Positions 8,186 through 56,352 of a DNA stretch of 64,000 nucleotides are shown here, in pieces. The notes beneath the pieces were generated by a model. That model searched no databases and had not been told where the DNA came from. It worked only from the letters and a program-made list of their open reading frames with translations. Each line of letters begins with the position of its first letter. Within the stretch, counting starts at the first letter, position 1. A program made the position numbers and the translations under genes. Source of the DNA: Treponema sp. (GTDB lineage: Bacteria > Spirochaetota > Spirochaetia > Treponematales > Treponemataceae); NCBI GenBank assembly GCA_017464425.1, contig JAFUDX010000021.1, positions 1 through 64,000 on the forward strand, in the 5' to 3' direction.

Positions 8186-8262
8186 TAGCCCCTTAGGCGA
8201 GGGGGAAACTTCCCCACACATTACCTGCTCACTTCTCACTGCTAACTTCTAACTGCTCACTA
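8186..8262. repeat. Composite dispersed repeat at the ribBA 3' end
   Basis: A GC-rich palindrome-like block (GGCGAGGGGGAAACTTCCCC) is followed by a heptamer/octamer run (CTGCTCACTTCTCACTGCTA...). Relatives of the same pair of blocks occur in cbiA (19.34-19.43 kb), of the GC block at 49.05 kb, and of the run in cobU (20.69 kb). The run supplies the last ten codons of ribBA. Confidence 0.75.
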
Positions 8263-9455
8263 AAAATATGCCCCATCCTGTCGCGTTTTGTGCGCAGATA
8301 GAATGCGTCGTACTGCTGTGCGGGGATTTCAATCGGTACGCGCTCGCTCACTTTGAGACCGAAGCCGTCAAGCCCGTAGATTTTTTCGGGATTGTTCGTG
8401 AGAAGCCTGAGCGATTTACAACCCAAGTCACGCAAAATCTGTGCGCCAATCCAATATTCTCGCAAATCGGGTTTGAAGCCGAGCTTTACATTCGCCTCAA
8501 CGGTGTCCAAGCCCTCTTCCTGCAATTTGTACGCTTTGAGTTTGTTGATTAAGCCGATTCCGCGCCCTTCCTGCCGCATGTAGAGAATCACGCCCCGCCC
8601 CTCGTCATTCACGCGCTTCATCGCGGCTTGGAGCTGAGGACCGCAATCACAGCGGCGGCTTCCGAATACATCGCCCGTGAGACATTCTGAGTGAACGCGG
8701 CACAAGACATTCTCGCCGTCAGTCAAATCGCCTTTTACGAGAGCTACATGATGCTCGCCCGTGATGTCGTTTACATAGCCGTAGATGTCAAAATCGCCAT
8801 ACTCGGTGGGGAGTTTTGCTTTTGCTTCGCGGACGACATGCTTTTCGTTCACGCGGCAATAATCCTGCAAGGCTTTGATTGTGATGAACTTAAAGCCGAA
8901 TTTTTTCGCCATTTCCTGCAATTTTGCGCCGCGCATCATCGTGCCGTCATCGTCCATGATTTCACAGCACAAGCCGCATTCTTTTAAGCCCGCAAGACGG
9001 CACAAATCGACCGTTGCCTCAGTGTGACCGTTTCGCACCAAAACGCCGCCCTTTTTCGCAATGAGCGGGAACATGTGCCCCGGTCGGCGGAAGTCTGTCG
9101 CCACAGAAGACGGCTCAATGCATTTTTGCGCCGTGATTGAACGCTCTTTTGCAGAAATTCCCGTGGTGGTAGAAATGTGGTCGATTGAGACCGTAAAAGC
9201 CGTTTCGTGATTGTCGGTGTTTTCGGCGACCATCGGGTACAGCCCGAGCTTTAGGGCAAGCGACTGGCTCATCGGCATACAGATTAAGCCCTTTGCGTGG
9301 CTCGCCATCATGTTGACATTTTCTTGCGTGGCAAATTCCGCCGCACAAATCATGTCGCCCTCGTTTTCGCGGTCTTCGTCGTCTGAAACTAAAATGATTT
9401 TACCCGCTTTTAAATCAGCGAGTGCTTCTTCTATTGTGTTATATTGAAAAGACAT
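8229..9455 (-). CDS. ribBA: Bifunctional DHBP synthase / GTP cyclohydrolase II
   Basis: 408 residues. The N-terminal half is 3,4-dihydroxy-2-butanone-4-phosphate synthase ([19 protein letters not shown]). The C-terminal half is GTP cyclohydrolase II, with a Cys zinc site ([20 protein letters not shown]) and [10 protein letters not shown]. Together they make the two precursors of riboflavin. It sits alone behind an FMN riboswitch that covers its ribosome site, so flavin should repress it. The last ten residues ([10 protein letters not shown]) come from a dispersed repeat found elsewhere in the window. Confidence 0.97.
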
Positions 9456-9462
9456 AATTCTT

Positions 9463-9612
9463 CTCCTATCCGGACTTTAATCGAGAGAGTTAAAAACTCA
9501 ACTCAAACCGTCGGCTACGGAATTGCACCGTATCATGCAGAAACTCTGCTCGCTGGCTTACGCAGAACGCGCTCACAGCCGGTGGGGAATCTCACCCCGC
9601 CCCGAAGTTGTT
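9463..9612 (-). promoter_or_regulatory. FMN riboswitch (RFN element) upstream of ribBA
   Basis: Read leftward, the block begins CTTCGGGGCGGGGTGAGATT and continues through CCCCACCGG, a variable stem, GTAGCCGACGG and a closing AAAGTCCGGATAGGAG. These are the conserved parts of the RFN aptamer. The final AGGAG is the ribBA ribosome site, which suggests translational control. A Fic-like remnant on the other strand starts inside its 5' edge. Confidence 0.93.
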
Positions 9613-9979
9613 TTATGGTAACACAAAGGGTAAAGAGATTCAAGAACCCTCAAACAATACATTCTCAAAGGCTATGCGGCAAACGACCGCAGGCTTGAAG
9701 AACTCAAACAAACGCTCCGAATCATCCACCGTGCAAGAAAAGGCGGCGAATCTGCTTTACTTCATCACAAAAAATCATTCGTTCAGCGACGGAAACAAGC
9801 GAATCGCGGCAACGCTTTTCCTTCATTTTCTCAACAAAAACGGCTGTCTTTTTAAGGATGGGCGCAAGCAAATCGAGGACAACACGTTTGTCGCGCTCAC
9901 GATTATGATTGCCGAATCAAAGTCCGAAGAAAAAGAACTCATGGTGAATCTCGTGATGCAATTTTTGACAAATTCTTAA
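9608..9979 (+). pseudogene. Fic/Doc-domain remnant (RhuM-like C-terminus)
   Basis: The frame carries VQEKAANLLYFITKNHSFSDGNKRIAA, which contains the Fic motif HxFxDGNKR, and ends like the C-terminal part of RhuM/death-on-curing proteins (ALTIMIAES). Fic domains transfer AMP or other groups to proteins. The N-terminal two thirds of such a protein are missing, the first ~40 residues match nothing, and no ribosome site is visible. I call it a truncated remnant abutting the riboswitch. Confidence 0.7.
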
Positions 9980-16337: not shown

Positions 16338-17555
16338 TTATTGCGGCTCTGTGCCTGTGGAATTGAAGGTTATCCAATATGTGCCAGTGTAGGAGCTGCG
16401 ACCATCATAATGATAATTGCCCTCAGTCACCTTTATGTAGTATGTTTTTCCGCTGGTTACTGTCTTTTCTACATAGGTAGTCTTGTTTGCGTCTCCGCTT
16501 GCATCTAGGGCGCTTCCGACTATGTTGTAGCTATCGTCGTATAATGTAGCCGCTATGCAATTCATTGTGTTGAATTTGACATAAATACGTTGTGCGGATG
16601 CCGTAGCGACGAATTTAAACCACTGCTCGCCAGTTCCCCCATTGCTTTCAGTCTCTATCTTCCCGTTTACCCAGTTATTCTCAGTCAAATCAGTAATAAC
16701 AGTTTCGGGCTGTGCAGGAAAATCGGTAAACCCAATCCAGTAGGTTCCCGTGTAATCCCTGCGACCATCGTAACGATATTCTCCCGAAGTCACTTTTATG
16801 TAATAAGTTAATCCACTGGTTACAGTTTTTTCTACATAGGCAGTCGTACTTGCATCTCCGCTGGTATTTAGGTTGTTTCCTACAGGATTGAGACTACTGT
16901 CATATAAAGTAGCCGATATGCAGTTCATAGTATTGAATTTCACATAAACACGCTGTGCGGCTGCCGTAGCGATAAATTTGAACCACTGCTCACCAGTTCC
17001 ACCGTTACTTTCGCTCTCTATTTTTCCATCTGTCCACTTGTCGTTAGATAAATCAGTTATCACTGTTTCTGGCTGTGCGGGAAAATCAGTAACCCCAATC
17101 CAATATTTTCCAGTGTAATCCCTGCGACCATCGTAACGATATTCTCCCGAAGTCACTTTTATGTAATAAGTTAGTCCAGTGGTCACGTTTTTTTCTACAT
17201 AGGCAGTTGTACTTGCATCTCCACTGGTATTTAGATTGTTTCCTACAGGATTGAAGCTAGTGTCATATAAAGTAGCCGATATGCAATTCATAGTGCTAAA
17301 TTTGACATAGATGCGTTGCATAGATGCCGTGGCAACAAATTTGAACCACTGTTCATCTACTTTGTCATTTTTTAGCTTGACAATTTCGCCACTAGTCCAT
17401 TTGTCAACAGTCAAAACTGTATATTTTGAGTTTGAGTCTCCTGATTCTGAGTTTCCTTTAGAAGAAGAGCCTTCTGAACCGTTAAACTCACATCCAGCAA
17501 CAGTAATTACTAAAAAACAAAATACTGCAAAAATTTTTAGAATCTTTTGAATCAT
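16338..17555 (-). CDS. Lipoprotein with three tandem PPC-like repeats
   Basis: 405 residues. The lipobox is VAGC (Cys ~22), followed by a Ser/Gly-rich linker. Three ~115-residue repeats then follow, each with EQWFKFVATA, YVKFNTMNC, ATLYD and GLTYYIKV. This is the pattern of bacterial pre-peptidase C-terminal (PPC) domains, which are beta-sandwich, often carbohydrate- or protein-binding modules. Repeats 1 and 2 are almost identical at the DNA level, so the array is recent and could change copy number by recombination. Confidence 0.85.
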   Translation of the reverse strand: MIQKILKIFAVFCFLVITVAGCEFNGSEGSSSKGNSESGDSNSKYTVLTVDKWTSGEIVKLKNDKVDEQWFKFVATASMQRIYVKFSTMNCISATLYDTSFNPVGNNLNTSGDASTTAYVEKNVTTGLTYYIKVTSGEYRYDGRRDYTGKYWIGVTDFPAQPETVITDLSNDKWTDGKIESESNGGTGEQWFKFIATAAAQRVYVKFNTMNCISATLYDSSLNPVGNNLNTSGDASTTAYVEKTVTSGLTYYIKVTSGEYRYDGRRDYTGTYWIGFTDFPAQPETVITDLTENNWVNGKIETESNGGTGEQWFKFVATASAQRIYVKFNTMNCIAATLYDDSYNIVGSALDASGDANKTTYVEKTVTSGKTYYIKVTEGNYHYDGRSSYTGTYWITFNSTGTEPQ

Positions 17556-18721: not shown

Positions 18722-20311
18722 CTAAGTCCGCTCTCCCCCGCACGCGCCCACAAACCAGCGCACAATCTCGGGGCAACTTCGGTAATACAAATGCGGAAAA
18801 CCCGCGAGCATTTTTTCCGTGTGAATCATGCAATCCCATGAGCGGGAAGAAAGTGGCTTTTTCGCACTGAACGCGCTCCCATTGTTCGTGCTGTCAAAAT
18901 AGTGAAATTCATGCCCCCGTATTGTGGTTTCGACTCCGCTCAACCACCGTTCTTTCGGCGCAAATTCCGCGTAGCCGAATCTGACCAATTTTCCCGTATA
19001 TCGGCACTCGCCTTCTATTGCGCCGCACATTTCGTACGCCTCGCCTGATTCCGTCACAAGTTTTTCTTGCAAGTACATGAACCCGCCACACTCCGCCATG
19101 ACCGCCACCCCGTTTTTGACCGCCGCCTTAATCGACTTCCGCATTGAATCGTTCGCCTCAAGTTCCGCCGCATGAAGTTCGGGATAGCCCCCGCCGAGCA
19201 AAATCCCCCGCGCCTCAGACGGAACGCACGCATCATGCAAGGGCGAAAAAAACACAAGGCGCGCCCCCGCCTCTTCAAGCGCACGAAGATTCTCTTGATA
19301 ATAGAAGCAAAACGCTTCGTCACGGGCAACAGCGATTGTTAGTGAGGAGTGAGGAGTTAGCAGTGTGTAGTTAGCAGTGTGCAGTGTGGAATTTGCATGG
19401 GGGAAAGCCTTCCCCTCGCAAAAAGCAGTATAATCTTTTATTTTTGATTGTTGCCCACAAGGAGGTGGGCAAGAGCCAGTTGACCCGCAAGAATTTTGCG
19501 TGAGCAAAATTCTTGTCCGCGACAGGATGTCGGTGTTTTTCGTTTTCAATTTTCCGTTTTCAATTTCCATAATCGCTTCCAGTTCGGCAAAATCGAGCGT
19601 TTCGGTGAGGATTCGGGCGGTTTTTTGGATTTGTTTGTTTAGGTCGGCGATTTCTTGGGGCAAGAAAAGCCCTAAGTGGCGGCTCTTCCACACGGATTCG
19701 GAATCGTTCGGCAAAAAGCCGACTACTTTCACGCATTTTTCACCGTTTTCATCAGCTACGACACATTCTTCTTCAATCAGCGGCTTTAGAATCGAAAACT
19801 GAGCCTTCGAGCATTTGTTAAGGAAGATTCCCCTGATAAGATTTTTTCCGTCGCGCGAATTTTTTTTGTCGTAATCCAAAAATCCCTGCACGAGTGGCAC
19901 AATCGAACGGCTTGCCCCACTCGCATCCAGTACGAGCAGAATCGGCGTTTTGGTGATTCGGGCGATGTCATAGCTCGAAGCCTGAATCGACTTCCCTGCC
20001 AAGCCGTCAAACAGCCCCATCACCCCCTCAATAACAGCACAATCGGCACGGGAACGCGCATAATTCTCAGTAAAAATCTTTCGCACTTCGTCTTCGCCAA
20101 CAAAATAGCTGTCAAGATTCGTGCTCGGCACTCCCAAAACGCGCTCATGGAACATCGGGTCGATAAAATCAGGTCCGCACTTAAACGCGACCGGCGAGTG
20201 CCCTCGATTTTTGAGCAAGGCGAGCAAAGCACAAGTGAGCGTAGTCTTTCCGCTCGAACTTGAAGGCGCGGCAATCATAATGCGAGGAATGGGAGAACTA
20301 TCTAGCTTCAT
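18722..20311 (-). CDS. cbiA: Cobyrinic acid a,c-diamide synthase with repeat inserts
   Basis: 529 residues, longer than the usual ~450-460. P-loop APSSSSGKTT (15-24), FKCGPDFIDP and EGVMGLFDG mark the ATPase half. LGGGYPELHA, AECGGFMYL and GHEFHYF mark the glutamine amidotransferase half. It amidates cobyrinic acid using glutamine and ATP. About 75 extra residues, from ~247, are encoded by dispersed repeats (19338-19568). A second ~10-residue insert (RWLSGVETTI) precedes GHEFHY and comes from another repeat family. The reading frame is intact. The ATG overlaps the cobU stop by 4 bp. Confidence 0.93.
   Translation of the reverse strand: MKLDSSPIPRIMIAAPSSSSGKTTLTCALLALLKNRGHSPVAFKCGPDFIDPMFHERVLGVPSTNLDSYFVGEDEVRKIFTENYARSRADCAVIEGVMGLFDGLAGKSIQASSYDIARITKTPILLVLDASGASRSIVPLVQGFLDYDKKNSRDGKNLIRGIFLNKCSKAQFSILKPLIEEECVVADENGEKCVKVVGFLPNDSESVWKSRHLGLFLPQEIADLNKQIQKTARILTETLDFAELEAIMEIENGKLKTKNTDILSRTRILLTQNSCGSTGSCPPPCGQQSKIKDYTAFCEGKAFPHANSTLHTANYTLLTPHSSLTIAVARDEAFCFYYQENLRALEEAGARLVFFSPLHDACVPSEARGILLGGGYPELHAAELEANDSMRKSIKAAVKNGVAVMAECGGFMYLQEKLVTESGEAYEMCGAIEGECRYTGKLVRFGYAEFAPKERWLSGVETTIRGHEFHYFDSTNNGSAFSAKKPLSSRSWDCMIHTEKMLAGFPHLYYRSCPEIVRWFVGACGGERT
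19338..19568. repeat. In-frame block of dispersed repeats inside cbiA
   Basis: The block contains, in order, the AGTGAGGAGTTAGCAGTGTG run, the GGGGGAAAGCCTTCCCCTCG palindrome-like block, a CCCAC..GTGGG hairpin, an ATTCTTGTCCGCGACAGGATG block and a GAAAACGGAAAATTGAAA block (leftward). Relatives of these units occur at 8.2, 20.7, 33.36 and 51.77 kb. All are translated without a stop. Confidence 0.8.
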
Positions 20312-21252
20312 TTTTGTTTTTCATGCTCATTAGTATTGGGTGAAATTTTCTGTGGAATTCCACAAAAAATCCTCGTGAGTTCTGCATTTTTTGCAATTTT
20401 TTGCAATGCGAGGCCCGTTTGTTCGCGCAGTTGCCGCTGAAAATAATCAATCGGTACAACTCCGCAAAAAATATCGTCACAAATAATCACTTCTACCGAT
20501 GTGCGAGAAAAATCTGTTTTGGGAGAATGACTATGCTTGAGGCAGTATGCGACATAGTTTTCATAGTGGGAAATGCATCGTTTTGAAAAATCAGGCAGAG
20601 AATCACCGCTGCATACACACACATCATCATCTGAAAGAGAAAATTCCTTCTTTGCCCATGCTGTTTTTCCTTGATATGCGCCACCCACAACCAACTGCAC
20701 ACTGCTAACTGCTAACTGCTCACTTCTACTTCCTGCAACCATTTCTACCACAGTGTCACACTTGTCTGCGAGAAAGTTTTCAGTTTTTGCAAGGATTCTT
20801 CTATACAATTCTGTGAATTTGTCATAGTTTTTGCCATCGAAAAAGATTGTATCGCTTACGAAAACGACTGATTGTGCATGATTCATGAGAAATTCCAAAT
20901 CCGATTGTATTTTTTGGGTAATTTTTTCTTCATCTTGCTGTGCGTGTACCATACTGTCGGAAGAATCAAACAATTCGTTGGCAATAAGTGCCGTAAGACT
21001 GTCAAACAGAACCACGCTGTTCGGTTTTAGTTTTTTTACTGCTTCACAGATGTTTTTCCCACATTCAATTGTCTCAAATCCGAGATTTTTGCGGTCTTCA
21101 CGGTGTTTTTTGATTCGCTCTTCGTCTTCAGAATCATGCGGAATCATGGTGGCAAAGTACACGAGCGGAGCATTTTTTGCCAGTGTGCACGCACGCTCCT
21201 GCGCATAAGAGGATTTTCCATTTTTACAGCCACCAGAAACAAGGACAGTCAT
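20308..21252 (-). CDS. cobU: Doubled CobU: adenosylcobinamide kinase plus CobU-like second domain
   Basis: 314 residues against ~180 for a normal CobU. Residues 1-~165 are a full CobU domain, with P-loop SGGCKNGKSSYAQE, a VVLFDSLT motif and a VVEMVAG end. A ~12-residue linker (SRSEQLAVSSVQ) follows. A second domain at ~182-310 opens VVGGAYQGKTAWAK and closes with ICDDIFCGVVPIDYFQRQLRE and IFCGIPQKI, the typical CobU C-terminus. CobU phosphorylates adenosylcobinamide and attaches GMP. The second domain has a shortened P-loop (GGAYQGKT). The linker is a dispersed repeat also found in ribBA. Confidence 0.88.
   Translation of the reverse strand: MTVLVSGGCKNGKSSYAQERACTLAKNAPLVYFATMIPHDSEDEERIKKHREDRKNLGFETIECGKNICEAVKKLKPNSVVLFDSLTALIANELFDSSDSMVHAQQDEEKITQKIQSDLEFLMNHAQSVVFVSDTIFFDGKNYDKFTELYRRILAKTENFLADKCDTVVEMVAGSRSEQLAVSSVQLVVGGAYQGKTAWAKKEFSLSDDDVCVCSGDSLPDFSKRCISHYENYVAYCLKHSHSPKTDFSRTSVEVIICDDIFCGVVPIDYFQRQLREQTGLALQKIAKNAELTRIFCGIPQKISPNTNEHEKQK
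20691..20728. repeat. Dispersed heptamer-type repeat forming the CobU linker
   Basis: Leftward, the DNA reads AGTGAGCAGTTAGCAGTTAG, then CAGTGTGCAG, nearly the same as the end of ribBA. It encodes SEQLAVSSVQ exactly between the two CobU domains. Confidence 0.8.
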
Positions 21253-32021: not shown

Positions 32022-33362
32022 ATGGAATCATCGGAATTCAGAAAACTTTGCGAACAAGCGTGCGGCAACACCGATTCGGTGAACGAATTGCTTGCGCGGT
32101 ACGGCGTGAAATTCGGCATCTACAAAAACGGCACTTTCAAAGAACAGCTTTTCCCCTTCGACATGATTCCGCGCGTGATTGAAAAGGACGAATTCGCTTT
32201 TTTGGAGCGCGGGCTAAAACAGCGCGTTGTGGCGTTGAACTGCTTTATCAAGGACATCTACGCCGAAAAGAATATCGTAAAGGACGGCGTTGTTCCCGAA
32301 GAATTCATCTACGCGGGGAGCGGCTACCTTGCCCAGTGCGAGGGCGTGACACCGCCAAAAGGCATTTACGCGCACATCTCTGGAATTGACTTGGTGCAAG
32401 GAAAAGACGGCTCCTGGTTCATTCTTGAAGACAACCTGCGGATTCCGTCGGGGGCGAGTTACCCGATGATTGCCCGCGACTTGTGCCGAAAAAGCGCGCC
32501 GAGTCTCTTCGAGCAGATTCATATAGAAGACAACCGAAACTACGCGAGCCTCTTGCGAAAAACGATGGACACGGTGAACACGGGCGGACATACGGTGATT
32601 CTCTCGCCCGGTCGCTACAATGCCGCGTACTTTGAGCATTCCTATCTCGCCGAGCAGACGGGGGCGCACCTTGCCACGGGGAGCGAACTGACCGTTGAAA
32701 ACGACCACCTCTATTTCATCGACTATTCGGGCAAAAAAGAGAAAGTCGGGGCAGTTTACCGCAGGATTTCAGACGACTTCCTTGACCCGATGAACTTCCG
32801 CGCTGACTCGGTAATCGGAATTCCGCACATCTACGACATCTACCGCAAAGGCAATGTCGCGCTCTTGAACGCGCCGGGAAACGGAGTCGCTGACGACAAG
32901 GGAATCTACTATTTCGTTCCGAAGATGGTCAAATACTACCTCGGCGAAGAGCCGATTCTCCAAAACGCGCCGACCTACCTTCCCTACTACGAGAGCGACA
33001 TGAAGTATGTACTGGAGAAATTTGACACGCTCGTTTTAAAAGATGTCGCCGAGGCGGGCGGTTACGGCGTGGTGTTCGGAAGCAAAATGACAAAGGCAGA
33101 AAAAGCGGACTTCATCGCGCTCCTAAAAGCAAACCCGCGCCGATTCATCGCACAGGAAGTGATTGACTTCAAGGACATCGACATCTTTGAGGGCGGAAAG
33201 TGCGTGCCGAGAAAGGCAGACCTGCGGGCATTCGTACTCATGGCAGACGAACCGATGGTCTGGAAGAGCGGACTCACCCGTTTTTCGCGCAATCCCGACT
33301 CATTCATCGTGAACTCATCGCAAGGCGGCGGATTTAAGGACACTTGGGTGGTGGGAAACTGA
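32022..33362 (+). CDS. Circularly permuted ATP-grasp protein
   Basis: 446 residues from ATG 32022 (GGAGG upstream), of the CP_ATPgrasp (DUF404/DUF407) family. ERGLKQRVVALNCFIKDIY, GIDLVQGKDGSWFILEDNLRIPSG and VLKDVAEAGGYGVVFGSKM are typical. It is predicted to join amino acids or peptides with ATP. Relatives are regularly encoded beside alpha-E and transglutaminase-like proteins, as here (37.8-39.4 kb), and the set is thought to make or attach a peptide tag. The three genes are split by a restriction-modification gene and a toxin-antitoxin pair. Confidence 0.93.
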   Translation: MESSEFRKLCEQACGNTDSVNELLARYGVKFGIYKNGTFKEQLFPFDMIPRVIEKDEFAFLERGLKQRVVALNCFIKDIYAEKNIVKDGVVPEEFIYAGSGYLAQCEGVTPPKGIYAHISGIDLVQGKDGSWFILEDNLRIPSGASYPMIARDLCRKSAPSLFEQIHIEDNRNYASLLRKTMDTVNTGGHTVILSPGRYNAAYFEHSYLAEQTGAHLATGSELTVENDHLYFIDYSGKKEKVGAVYRRISDDFLDPMNFRADSVIGIPHIYDIYRKGNVALLNAPGNGVADDKGIYYFVPKMVKYYLGEEPILQNAPTYLPYYESDMKYVLEKFDTLVLKDVAEAGGYGVVFGSKMTKAEKADFIALLKANPRRFIAQEVIDFKDIDIFEGGKCVPRKADLRAFVLMADEPMVWKSGLTRFSRNPDSFIVNSSQGGGFKDTWVVGN

Positions 33363-33515
33363 AAACGGAAAATTGAAAGAGGAAAATTGGGCGCATCCTC
33401 CGCTACTTCGCTTCGCTCCGTAACGCGGCGGTCGGGTTTTTCGGGGTTACGCGCTAACCGCGCTCCATTGCTCCGCAACGCTTCGCGCCCCTACAATCCC
33501 TTGCGCTTGGCTGAA
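33361..33515. repeat. Dispersed intergenic repeat block
   Basis: Starts GAAAACGGAAAATTGAAA (also in cbiA), then GGTCGGGTTTTTCGGGGTTA and CGCGCTAACCGCGCTCCATT, ending CCCCTACAATCCCTTGCGC. The same order recurs at 59.26-59.36 kb. It fills the gap between the ATP-grasp gene and the MmeI-like gene. Confidence 0.8.
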
Positions 33516-48121: not shown

Positions 48122-49050
48122 CAGAATCCATCCTCTATGAAATAAATTCCCTCTACCGCGACAATTTCCGCGTGACAGGCTTTTCGTTCGGAGCGGGCGA
48201 AAAATCGGTGTGCGTGGTCGGGTCGATGCGCGGGAACGAATACCAGCAAATCTACGCGTGCTCACGGCTCATTGAAAAACTCAAATCGCTCGAAGAAAAA
48301 GGCAAAATCGCGAGCGGAAAGCAGATTCTCGTGATTCCCTGCGCAAACCCCTACTCGGTGAATGTGAAAAAACGCTTTTGGACAATCGACAACACCGACA
48401 TCAACCGCATGTTCCCCGGCTACAACTTGGGCGAGACCACCCAGCGAATCGCGGACGGCATTTTCTCCACAATCAAGGATTTTTCGTACGGAATTCAGTT
48501 CGCCTCGTTCTACATGAGCGGAAATTTCGTTCCCCAGGTCAGAATGATGAAAACGGGTCACGAAAATGTGGAGCTTGCAAAGCAATTCGGGCTTCCCTAT
48601 GTCGTCCTGCACAATCCGCGCCCCTTCGACACGACCACGCTCAACTACAACTGGCAGATTTGGGAAACCGACGCATTTTCGCTCTACACCACGAGCACGA
48701 GCGACATCGACAAAAAAAGCGCGGTTCAGGCGGTGGATTCGATTCTCAATTTCCTCTCAAAGCAGGGCATCATCGACTACAAAGGCTACGAGGGCTACAT
48801 TTCGCGCGTGGTTGAGAGCAAGGATTTCGTGAACATCAGGAGCGAGCACGCGGGATTTTTCGAAAGTTTCGTCCAGGCGGGCGAATCGGTGGAACGCGGC
48901 CAGCTCCTCGCAAAAATCACCGACCCCTACACCGCCGCGCTCAAACAGGAAATCCGAGCGACCGAAAACGGAATCATCGCCTTCGCCCACAACGAAATTC
49001 TGATGTACCAAAATACCGCCGCTTTCAAACTGATTCGGGAAGAAGAATAA
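48118..49050 (+). CDS. M14-type paralogue with altered zinc site
   Basis: 310 residues from ATG 48118. It aligns throughout with the preceding gene product, but GIHGDE becomes GSMRGNE (Arg38 for His) and DIHASN becomes IQFASFY. Two of three zinc ligands are thus lost while E41 remains. NWQIWETDAFSLYTT replaces the catalytic Glu strand. Such paired genes are known in other bacteria. It probably acts as a partner or binds a different ligand. Confidence 0.85.
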   Translation: MTESILYEINSLYRDNFRVTGFSFGAGEKSVCVVGSMRGNEYQQIYACSRLIEKLKSLEEKGKIASGKQILVIPCANPYSVNVKKRFWTIDNTDINRMFPGYNLGETTQRIADGIFSTIKDFSYGIQFASFYMSGNFVPQVRMMKTGHENVELAKQFGLPYVVLHNPRPFDTTTLNYNWQIWETDAFSLYTTSTSDIDKKSAVQAVDSILNFLSKQGIIDYKGYEGYISRVVESKDFVNIRSEHAGFFESFVQAGESVERGQLLAKITDPYTAALKQEIRATENGIIAFAHNEILMYQNTAAFKLIREEE

Positions 49051-49125
49051 GGGGGAAGTCTCCCCCTCGCTCCAACCGCTTCGCGTTTTCCGCTACCCCT
49101 TCTCCTAAGGGGCAAGCCCCTTAAA
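49051..49125. repeat. GC-rich dispersed repeat after M14 pair
   Basis: GGGGGAAGTCTCCCCCTCGC and AAGGGGCAAGCCCCTT hairpins, sharing words with the blocks at 8.19 and 19.40 kb. The second hairpin overlaps the end of the ACT-domain gene. Confidence 0.7.
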
Positions 49126-49494
49126 ATCCCCGATACTGTACCCTGCCTCTTTTAGCGCAAAGAGTGCCTCTTCAAATTGCCCTTCTTTCACCAAAATATA
49201 GTCCGTGTTGAAAGTAGAGACAGCGAAAATGCCGATTTTGTGCGCCGCAAGGATGGCAGAGATGCGCGAGAGAATGCCGATGAGAGAGAAGTCGAGCGTT
49301 CCGCAGATTCTGAACGCTTTCCAGCCATCATCGCGTGCGGTCGTGCGCTCTGGAACGGCAGAAGTCTCACAGACAAGGGAATATTCCTCATCTGTCTTTC
49401 CGCTGAAGTATATACGGCTGTCCGTCGCAAGATCTTTTTCTTCCGCCGCCTTGCAGACGGTCAAGTCATAGGGAAGTTTTTCTAATTTCAGCAT
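49105..49494 (-). CDS. ACT-domain protein
   Basis: 129 residues from ATG 49494 (AAGGAG upstream). EYSLVCETSAVPE, then GTLDFSLIGILSRISAILAAHKIGIFAVSTFNTDYILV is the ACT_7/CASTOR-like pattern of small amino-acid-sensing proteins. The last residues are encoded by a dispersed repeat. Confidence 0.88.
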   Translation of the reverse strand: MLKLEKLPYDLTVCKAAEEKDLATDSRIYFSGKTDEEYSLVCETSAVPERTTARDDGWKAFRICGTLDFSLIGILSRISAILAAHKIGIFAVSTFNTDYILVKEGQFEEALFALKEAGYSIGDFKGLAP

Positions 49495-51639: not shown

Positions 51640-51840
51640 AGGGCGTTCCCCTACGCTTCGCTTCGGGTCGGGGCTTTCGCCGTTCCGCTGTCGCTCCATT
51701 CCCCGCCAACCGTGTTTGTATTTTGTCGGTGCGACAGGAGGTCGCGTTGCTTTAAAAGTAAATAAGTTGCGCGAGAACGAAGTTCTTGTCCACGCCACGG
51801 ATGTCGGTGAACGCCTACGGCGCGGCTACAGCCCCTAACG
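51640..51840. repeat. Cluster of dispersed repeats
   Basis: CTTCGGGTCGGGGCTTTCGC, GCGACAGGAGGTCGCGTTGC, GAAGTTCTTGTCCACGCCAC and CTACGGCGCGGCTACAGCCC follow one another. The second recurs near 59.21 kb and the third in cbiA. No gene is visible here on either strand. Confidence 0.75.
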
Positions 51841-55550: not shown

Positions 55551-55830
55551 TTACGCCTTGACCGCTGCAAGCACTTTGTTGTAAGTGCCTTTTTTCATCG
55601 TTTTGAGAGCCTTGCCCGATGAGCCGATGATTTTTGTGCGCACTTCCACGCTGAACTCTCCTGCCGTGATGTCGGCAGGAAGCAGGACGAGCAATCGCGC
55701 GGGCTTGTTCTCGATGACGGTGGAACAGCGCACCTCGCCGCTGCTGTGAGCGCGAACACGCCCTGTTCCTCATCGCTTGCATCGAACTTCAGCCGTGCGC
55801 CTGTCAGCTCCATGACGCTTCCCGCCTTAA
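55551..55830 (-). pseudogene. Remnant of DUF4469-type C-terminal domain
   Basis: MELTGARLKFDASDEEQGVF, then after a frameshift near 55735 RCSTVIENKPARLLVLLPADITAG..SVEVRTKIIGSSGKALKTMKKGTYN. Together these are the Ig-like C-terminal domain of HU-like DNA-binding proteins with DUF4469. The N-terminal DNA-binding part is absent; a dispersed GTGGTTTCGACTGCGCTCAA repeat (55829-55859) marks the break. Confidence 0.65.
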
Positions 55831-55994
55831 TTGTGGTTTCGACTGCGCTCAACCACCGCGCGTATAAACAAAAAGCCCTTACCGTACCGTGCGAGCAGAA
55901 TGCCACACGAGCCGACAAGAGCTTGTGTTTGAGAAAGTGGGGTGTATTGTGTGGGATTAGATTTTGTACTAAGCGATTTTGGGCAGAGTTCGGG

Positions 55995-56122
55995 CGAATC
56001 TGCGAATCTGCGAATCTGCGAATCTGCGAATCTGCGAATCTGCGAATCTGCGAATCTGCGAATCTGCGAATCTGCGAATCTGCGAATCTGCGAATCTGCG
56101 AATCTGCGAATCTGCGAATCTG
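55995..56122. repeat. Perfect 8-bp tandem repeat, 16 copies
   Basis: CGAATCTG is repeated 16 times without error. It begins 4 bp downstream of the -10 box of a consensus leftward promoter, so it would form the first ~125 nt of the transcript. All frames stay open because 24 bp encode 8 residues (SQIRRFAD leftward), but no protein match flanks it. Confidence 0.95.
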
Positions 56123-56126
56123 CGAA

Positions 56127-56154
56127 ATTATATGGGCGGCACTGTCCGTGTCAA
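56127..56154 (-). promoter_or_regulatory. Consensus promoter, leftward
   Basis: TTGACA-N16-TATAAT with perfect boxes (-35 at 56154-56149, -10 at 56132-56127). Sequence around it matches the promoter at 63785-63812. Confidence 0.8.
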
Positions 56155-56352
56155 GAGGTTTTGAGAAAAAATATGCACTTTTTTCGCTGATTGTACTCCG
56201 CATACAAAGAGTATAGCACAGTTTGCGGGTTTTGTGGGGGAAATTTTAGGAATATTTTTGGGATTTTGTGCGGGAAAACGGTAACACTTTGTTTTATAAT
56301 TTAACTATAATTTAACTATTGACAAAAACCGCTTTTCTGTTATATTTAAATC

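Follow-up and report, generated by a model that had tools for sequence, protein, structure and literature searches.

In Rickettsia, in Wolbachia and in one archaeon, selfish repeats that are read in frame within core enzymes have already been described. Cyanobacteria harbor the heptanucleotide short tandemly repeated repetitive sequences (STRR), which are dispersed arrays of 7-nt units. The palindromic elements of Rickettsia (RPE) are described as being 105-146 bp long, as forming long stem-loops and as having terminal inverted repeats (Ogata, 2000, 2002; PMC2229807, PMC10969869), and their first survey is reported to have found them in frame in 19 genes (PMC2229807). Coding palindromes that lie in frame in housekeeping genes of Wolbachia and of Methanocaldococcus jannaschii are known through a secondary mention (cited in PMC2996958). 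The PARCEL repeats are palindromic and protein-coding, and form tandem 25-residue amphipathic units in membrane proteins of mostly unknown function (PMC2996958). A literature search, with most subscription journals outside its coverage, found no published report on in-frame repeats in Treponema.

The DNA analyzed here, from now on called the window, is a stretch of 64,000 nucleotides (C4:1-64000) from a Treponema genome of 3.22 Mb in 50 contigs (G000). It contains a cbiA gene for which in-frame dispersed repeats resembling those of Rickettsia had been predicted. We conclude that this is very probably an apparently working gene, in which short dispersed repeats from several unrelated families occupy the inter-domain linker and one surface loop.

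The cbiA gene and its two repeat sites

The gene (18722-20311, minus strand), identified by its open reading frame and by Pfam, encodes a protein of 529 amino acids of the cobyrinate a,c-diamide synthase type and adjoins cobU. The frame is unbroken, and Pfam finds GATase_3 (8e-33) and the CbiA ATPase domain (3e-8). The AlphaFold model has a mean pLDDT of 82.6 and shows two confident domains, and residues 255-321, which belong to insert 1, are below 50. Foldseek with this model gave GatD-type glutamine amidotransferases as best matches; the search of the sequence against solved structures returned RecA fusion constructs only. Compared with the sister species G020, the CbiA of which is 90% identical in aligned residues, the core has a dN/dS of 0.135 and is under purifying selection; for the linker the ratio is 0.84, calculated from the alignable columns only. 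The original prediction that cbiA carries dispersed repeats in frame at two sites, with neither stop nor frameshift, holds.

Insert 1 (19338-19570, minus strand) is a composite repeat linker of residues ~249-325 at the boundary of the ATPase and GATase_3 domains. In CbiA homologues from other genera the alignment is limited to residues 8-260 and 313/323-524, leaving residues ~249-322 without counterpart, and in Lachnospiraceae and more distant Treponema species the linker at this site is far shorter. A segment of ~75 residues (19338-19568) had been proposed to consist of dispersed-repeat DNA, and it had been laid down beforehand that a segment shared by distant homologues would not be a repeat insert. 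The distant homologues lack it, and the proposal is confirmed with best edges at 19338 and about 19570. Insert-1 DNA matches 48 further places in the 3.2-Mb genome, the best with E values of 1e-17 (over 81 nt), 3e-11 and 1e-8. Of the partner sites named in the prediction, those at 8.2, 20.7 and 33.36 kb are good BLAST matches; that at 51.77 kb (51727-51806, between genes, no strand assigned) is a divergent relative of the hairpin cluster described below, recognized by eye only and not listed by BLAST.

The modules of insert 1 follow each other in the order AGTTAGC array, GGGGAAGGC module, spacer, hairpin cluster and TTTTCAA array. Heptanucleotide array A (19341-19392, plus strand; AGTTAGC/AGTGTGC units), delimited by genomic pattern matches and alignments, has a pattern that matches 207 times in the genome versus 0 for the reversed-pattern control. 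Between it and the hairpin cluster lie the 20-bp GGGGAAGGC module and the spacer. At 19400-19420 (minus strand) an end remnant of a ~85-nt multi-hairpin element (...GCGAGGGGAAGGCTTTCCCCC) is read EGKAFP; it is common to the sister cbiA and corresponds to positions 64-83 of the element's HMM, to which it is a weak match when taken alone (E 0.13). The hairpin cluster (19452-19535, plus strand; GCCCACAAGGAGGTGGGC, CAAGAATTTTGC..GCAAAATTCTTG, CGACAGGATGTCG) has genomic matches of 86% at C20:99735-99815 and of 81% at C11:13345-13414. Array B (19536-19568, plus strand; TTTTCAA/TTTTCCG units), read ENGKLKTKN on the minus strand, has many, for example C17:197-220 with 24/24 nt. A composite of similar order stands at C11:13345-13576, judged by eye seemingly with another repeat family within.

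Could this be an ordinary fast-evolving linker of low complexity, resembling other DNA by composition or chance? Linkers between the two domains vary in length in all CbiA homologues, and the signal from the window alone is modest (three exact matches of at least 14 nt in 270 bp, where the baseline has a mean of 0.55 and a 95th percentile of 2). Such a linker does not account for the 207 matches of array A against none in the control, nor for matches with E values of 1e-17 that fall in non-coding or unrelated places, nor for the occurrence of the ~85-nt element in both orientations at one site in CarA, nor for the abrupt replacement of blocks within near-identical flanks (see below). The controls have largely refuted this explanation, and we regard it as highly improbable.

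The hairpin cluster raises the question whether the repeats are selected as functional RNA or DNA elements, such as CsrA-binding hairpins or terminators, their presence in proteins being a side effect. ANGGA loops are typical of CsrA sites, nearly every loop of the cluster carries this motif (AAGGAG, ACAGGATGT, ACGGAT), including those of the hairpins L139-L148, and the genome contains csrA (C19:50525). However, such loops are only slightly enriched genome-wide (35 versus about 26 in simulations), the GGA hairpins in cbiA lie on the antisense strand, and the other repeat families are without such loops; functional selection of this kind is unlikely to be the explanation. For the same slight enrichment and antisense copy the idea of a CsrA sponge was dropped, although the loops fit.

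Insert 2 (18921-18949, minus strand) is an imperfect palindrome read RWLSGVETTI, which adds ~10 residues to a GATase loop that is variable among homologues. It was recognized by its genomic copies and by the different repeat in the sister. The 24-mer at 18924-18947, read WLSGVETT, equals GTGGTTTCGACTNCGCTCAACCAC without mismatch and recurs identically at 55833-55856, as predicted for 55.83 kb, and in two more places; with up to 3 mismatches the genome has seven copies and the control 0. The second copy in the window (55830-55858, plus strand, from sequence matches and gene calling) lies outside predicted genes. Close to it, at 55970-56161, there is a tandem array of the 8-mer GCGAATCT with well over ten copies.

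In its look this palindrome is REP-like, and the genome has a Y1_Tnp gene (C9:24698, a 134-aa frame), as would be expected if a Y1 transposase moved the repeats in the manner of REP/RAYT-type palindromes. There is just one such gene, seven relatives without a Y1_Tnp match (G002-G005, G008, G009 and G011) still carry the ~85-nt element, and heptamer arrays are not REPs; we give this explanation very little credence. Y1_Tnp was also rejected as the mover for want of any association with the repeats, and the search for Y1_Tnp in this genome and its relatives identified no mobilizing enzyme.

Copies of the repeats in the window, the genome and the genus

Two further genes named in the prediction, ribBA and cobU, do contain dispersed repeats. 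In ribBA (8229-9455) a heptanucleotide array (8225-8267, minus strand), identified by genomic matches, provides a new C-terminal tail and the stop codon; an FMN riboswitch (9454-9613, minus strand) lies directly upstream of the gene. In cobU an array at 20693-20724 (minus strand), found by genomic matches, pattern search and comparison with the sister, is read SEQLAVSSVQL in a linker. A copy of array B (33354-33386, minus strand; genomic matches and gene calling) covers the 3' end of the gene 32079-33362 (plus strand) and extends beyond it. The ~85-nt element is present at 49046-49133 (minus strand; HMM E 3.5e-19), mostly between genes. The window also has a lipoprotein-like gene (16338-17555) with three internal repeats of 363 nt that are 70-77% identical.

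Repeat counts were obtained from searches and from a 461-kb sample of the genome, in which a simple hexamer model served for gene calling and de novo repeat finding had low sensitivity. The sample contains 13 good copies of the ~85-nt element, 4 of them inside predicted genes, and a peptide search finds the element in 32 places genome-wide. It is read in frame in forward orientation in RecG, a cyclase, a DUF554 protein and CarB, and in reversed orientation in AsnB, an ABC exporter, CarA, a pseudouridine synthase, an MMPL transporter, an HsdS-like and a TonB-like protein. In the ABC exporter, CarA and RecG the inserts are at domain boundaries: that of the exporter is between the membrane and ATPase domains, and that of RecG just before the Walker-A segment, with both sides aligning to Thermotoga RecG. 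The element folds into a series of three short hairpins, modestly below simple mononucleotide shuffles, and its openness in six frames gave no simple pattern indicative of a constraint on stop-free frames.

Of 20 distinct heptamer-array loci checked, 7 have the array within an open frame. One heptamer array seemingly forms the signal peptide (MKKLHTTHCTLLTSVFSLLTSLICLLALASC) of a predicted lipoprotein (L154, G000:C9:153965-156217). Genes are avoided by the repeats but not spared, since ~45% of the repeat bases lie in predicted genes, which make up ~85% of the whole 461-kb sample. Some repeat copies apparently break genes. Hairpin-cluster copies that contain stop codons occur at L139 (G000:C20:99735-99815), L147/L148 (C31:503-548, C8:38085-38130) and L141 (C8:36819-36891), inside an apparent B12-binding methionine-synthase-like domain and inside Rpn/PD-(D/E)XK-like genes, the latter assigned by eye; these copies seemingly replace conserved residues and look gene-breaking unless bypassed or removed in RNA.

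In the genus the peptide of the ~85-nt element was found in 104 of 196 genomes (E <= 0.01), and in the rest of the order in only 3 genomes of other genera. In related species the element is in frame in CarA, CarB, RecG, ABC-F, NFACT and DUF554 proteins, often in the same linker. The dN/dS of recG is 0.06-0.12; like the value of the cbiA core, this indicates purifying selection and speaks for a probably functional host protein. Between G000 (L312) and G083 (L293) the recG DNA around the insert is ~98% identical, recG having an overall dS of 0.47, which suggests a recent recombination tract. Special conservation of the near-identical inserts in these two genomes was considered and rejected, because the flanking recG DNA is as similar as the inserts, as a shared tract would explain.

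An assembly or binning artefact, by which repeats were misjoined into genes, comes to mind with a genome in 50 contigs and with relatives most of which are likewise drafts. The frames run open over the full length of genes, many assemblies have related inserts at identical sites, and the CarA insert is also present in genomes of 1-2 contigs (G156 and G076). An artefact is by now mostly refuted and scarcely credible.

Different repeats at the same sites in related species

The sister G020 shows that the repeats turn over between species. The DNA flanking both cbiA insert sites is near-identical in the two genomes, and the repeats inside differ. In G020 a complete ~85-nt element, read GDFKGLCPLGEGVAKNAAGGWSEGKAFP, makes up the 5' part of the linker, and the GATase loop has a CHAERSETS repeat in place of insert 2. 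The end of the element and the following heptamer array are common to both linkers; it therefore seems that the linker in the window exchanged the front of the ~85-nt element for the hairpin cluster, or the reverse. Going by this alignment, the cbiA inserts are replaced blocks relative to the sister rather than simple insertions, so that the event of insertion itself is not seen at cbiA. The linker of cobU has been swapped in the same manner, with SEQLAVSSVQL here versus KMENGKLKTRN (array B type) at the same site in the sister.

The sister genome also has a 72-nt repeat in frame in two genes, 98.6% identical, which the orthologues here lack. At indel sites of at least 10 aa between orthologues of the two genomes, dispersed repeats were found in 11 of 24, compared with 46 of 480 controls (p 1e-5); in this count matches were confined to the segment, an earlier version having been unconvincing with paralogous genes inflating the controls. 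The alignments of filled and empty sites at the two genes and at cbiA showed no clear target-site duplication.

CarA was followed through 27 species. Labelled by eye from the alignment, the linker holds the ~85-nt element forward in 7, reversed in 7 and in both orientations in 1, the rest having none or another sequence. A tree of CarA from which the linker was excluded requires at least 10 changes among the three states, and in two sister pairs with good support the element points in opposite directions. Gain, loss, gene conversion and transfer would all be compatible with these changes and are not separable from these data. In E. coli the corresponding place of CarA is taken by a linker that is similar in length but unrelated; part of the effect may therefore be the replacement of an existing linker.

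These findings are best explained as follows. The repeats of the genus (the ~85-nt element, heptanucleotide arrays, small palindromes and the hairpin cluster) are mostly intergenic, and they also occur in frame, read in one orientation or the other, where proteins tolerate extra disordered residues. Copies that break frame or fold would presumably be purged, and the survivors translated as near-neutral linkers. At tolerated sites one repeat family replaces another, with the flanks staying near-identical; the cause may be that dispersed copies with common modules recombine or allow template switching. As our best guess, exchange between copies with shared palindromic modules fits the swaps in cbiA and cobU. 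A bolder version, that active exchange throughout the genus swaps unrelated repeat cassettes at fixed permissive protein sites via recombination at shared palindromes, and that insertion and purging alone are not what is at work, is conceivable but doubtful.

If cassette exchange is true, the linkers of core enzymes keep a continuous record of the repeats that pass through them and supply new protein sequence. The host genus consists of gut spirochaetes; their genomes are ~3 Mb in size and hundreds of species have been sequenced. This allows gains, losses, orientations and replacements to be counted site by site, and the old proposal that insertion of repeats feeds new protein sequence becomes directly testable in Treponema. 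Annotators should not take such linkers for domains, since they consist of repeat DNA. In apparently working enzymes such as CbiA, tolerated repeat DNA is reshaping bacterial proteins.

Comparison with known repeat systems

With REP sequences and MITEs the Treponema repeats have in common that they are short, non-autonomous, hairpin-forming and dispersed (PMC3733652, PMC10969869); for the Treponema repeats, no transposase link was found and the site alignments showed no clear target-site duplication. From PARCEL repeats they differ in being single inserts in core enzymes. The palindromes of Wolbachia and M. jannaschii, known by citation rather than by comparison of sequences, are similar in being in-frame repeats in housekeeping genes. 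The cyanobacterial STRR, compared by description rather than by sequence, share the dispersed tandem 7-nt arrays (207 versus 0 matches for array A); in Treponema, unlike there, the arrays are partly read in frame inside genes.

The resemblance to RPE that had been predicted stands in part. As in Rickettsia, short dispersed repeats lie between genes and in frame within unrelated conserved genes; roughly a third to half of the copies are genic and tolerated at unstructured positions, as the RPE literature has it; and the positions here are predicted to be disordered or at the surface (cbiA residues 255-321; domain boundaries of the ABC exporter, CarA and RecG). What did not carry over is the structure and the mode of change. 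In place of a single palindromic family of 105-146 bp with a long stem-loop and terminal inverted repeats there is a ~85-nt element of three small hairpins, the heptamer arrays are tandem repeats and not palindromes, several unrelated families are read in both orientations with sites swapping families, and exchange is seen rather than plain insertion. The host, too, is different, a gut spirochaete with a ~3-Mb genome. We do not claim membership among the RPE, from which the Treponema repeats are set apart in structure, by the description of RPE and not by their sequences; in behavior they are like RPE, and of the same kind.
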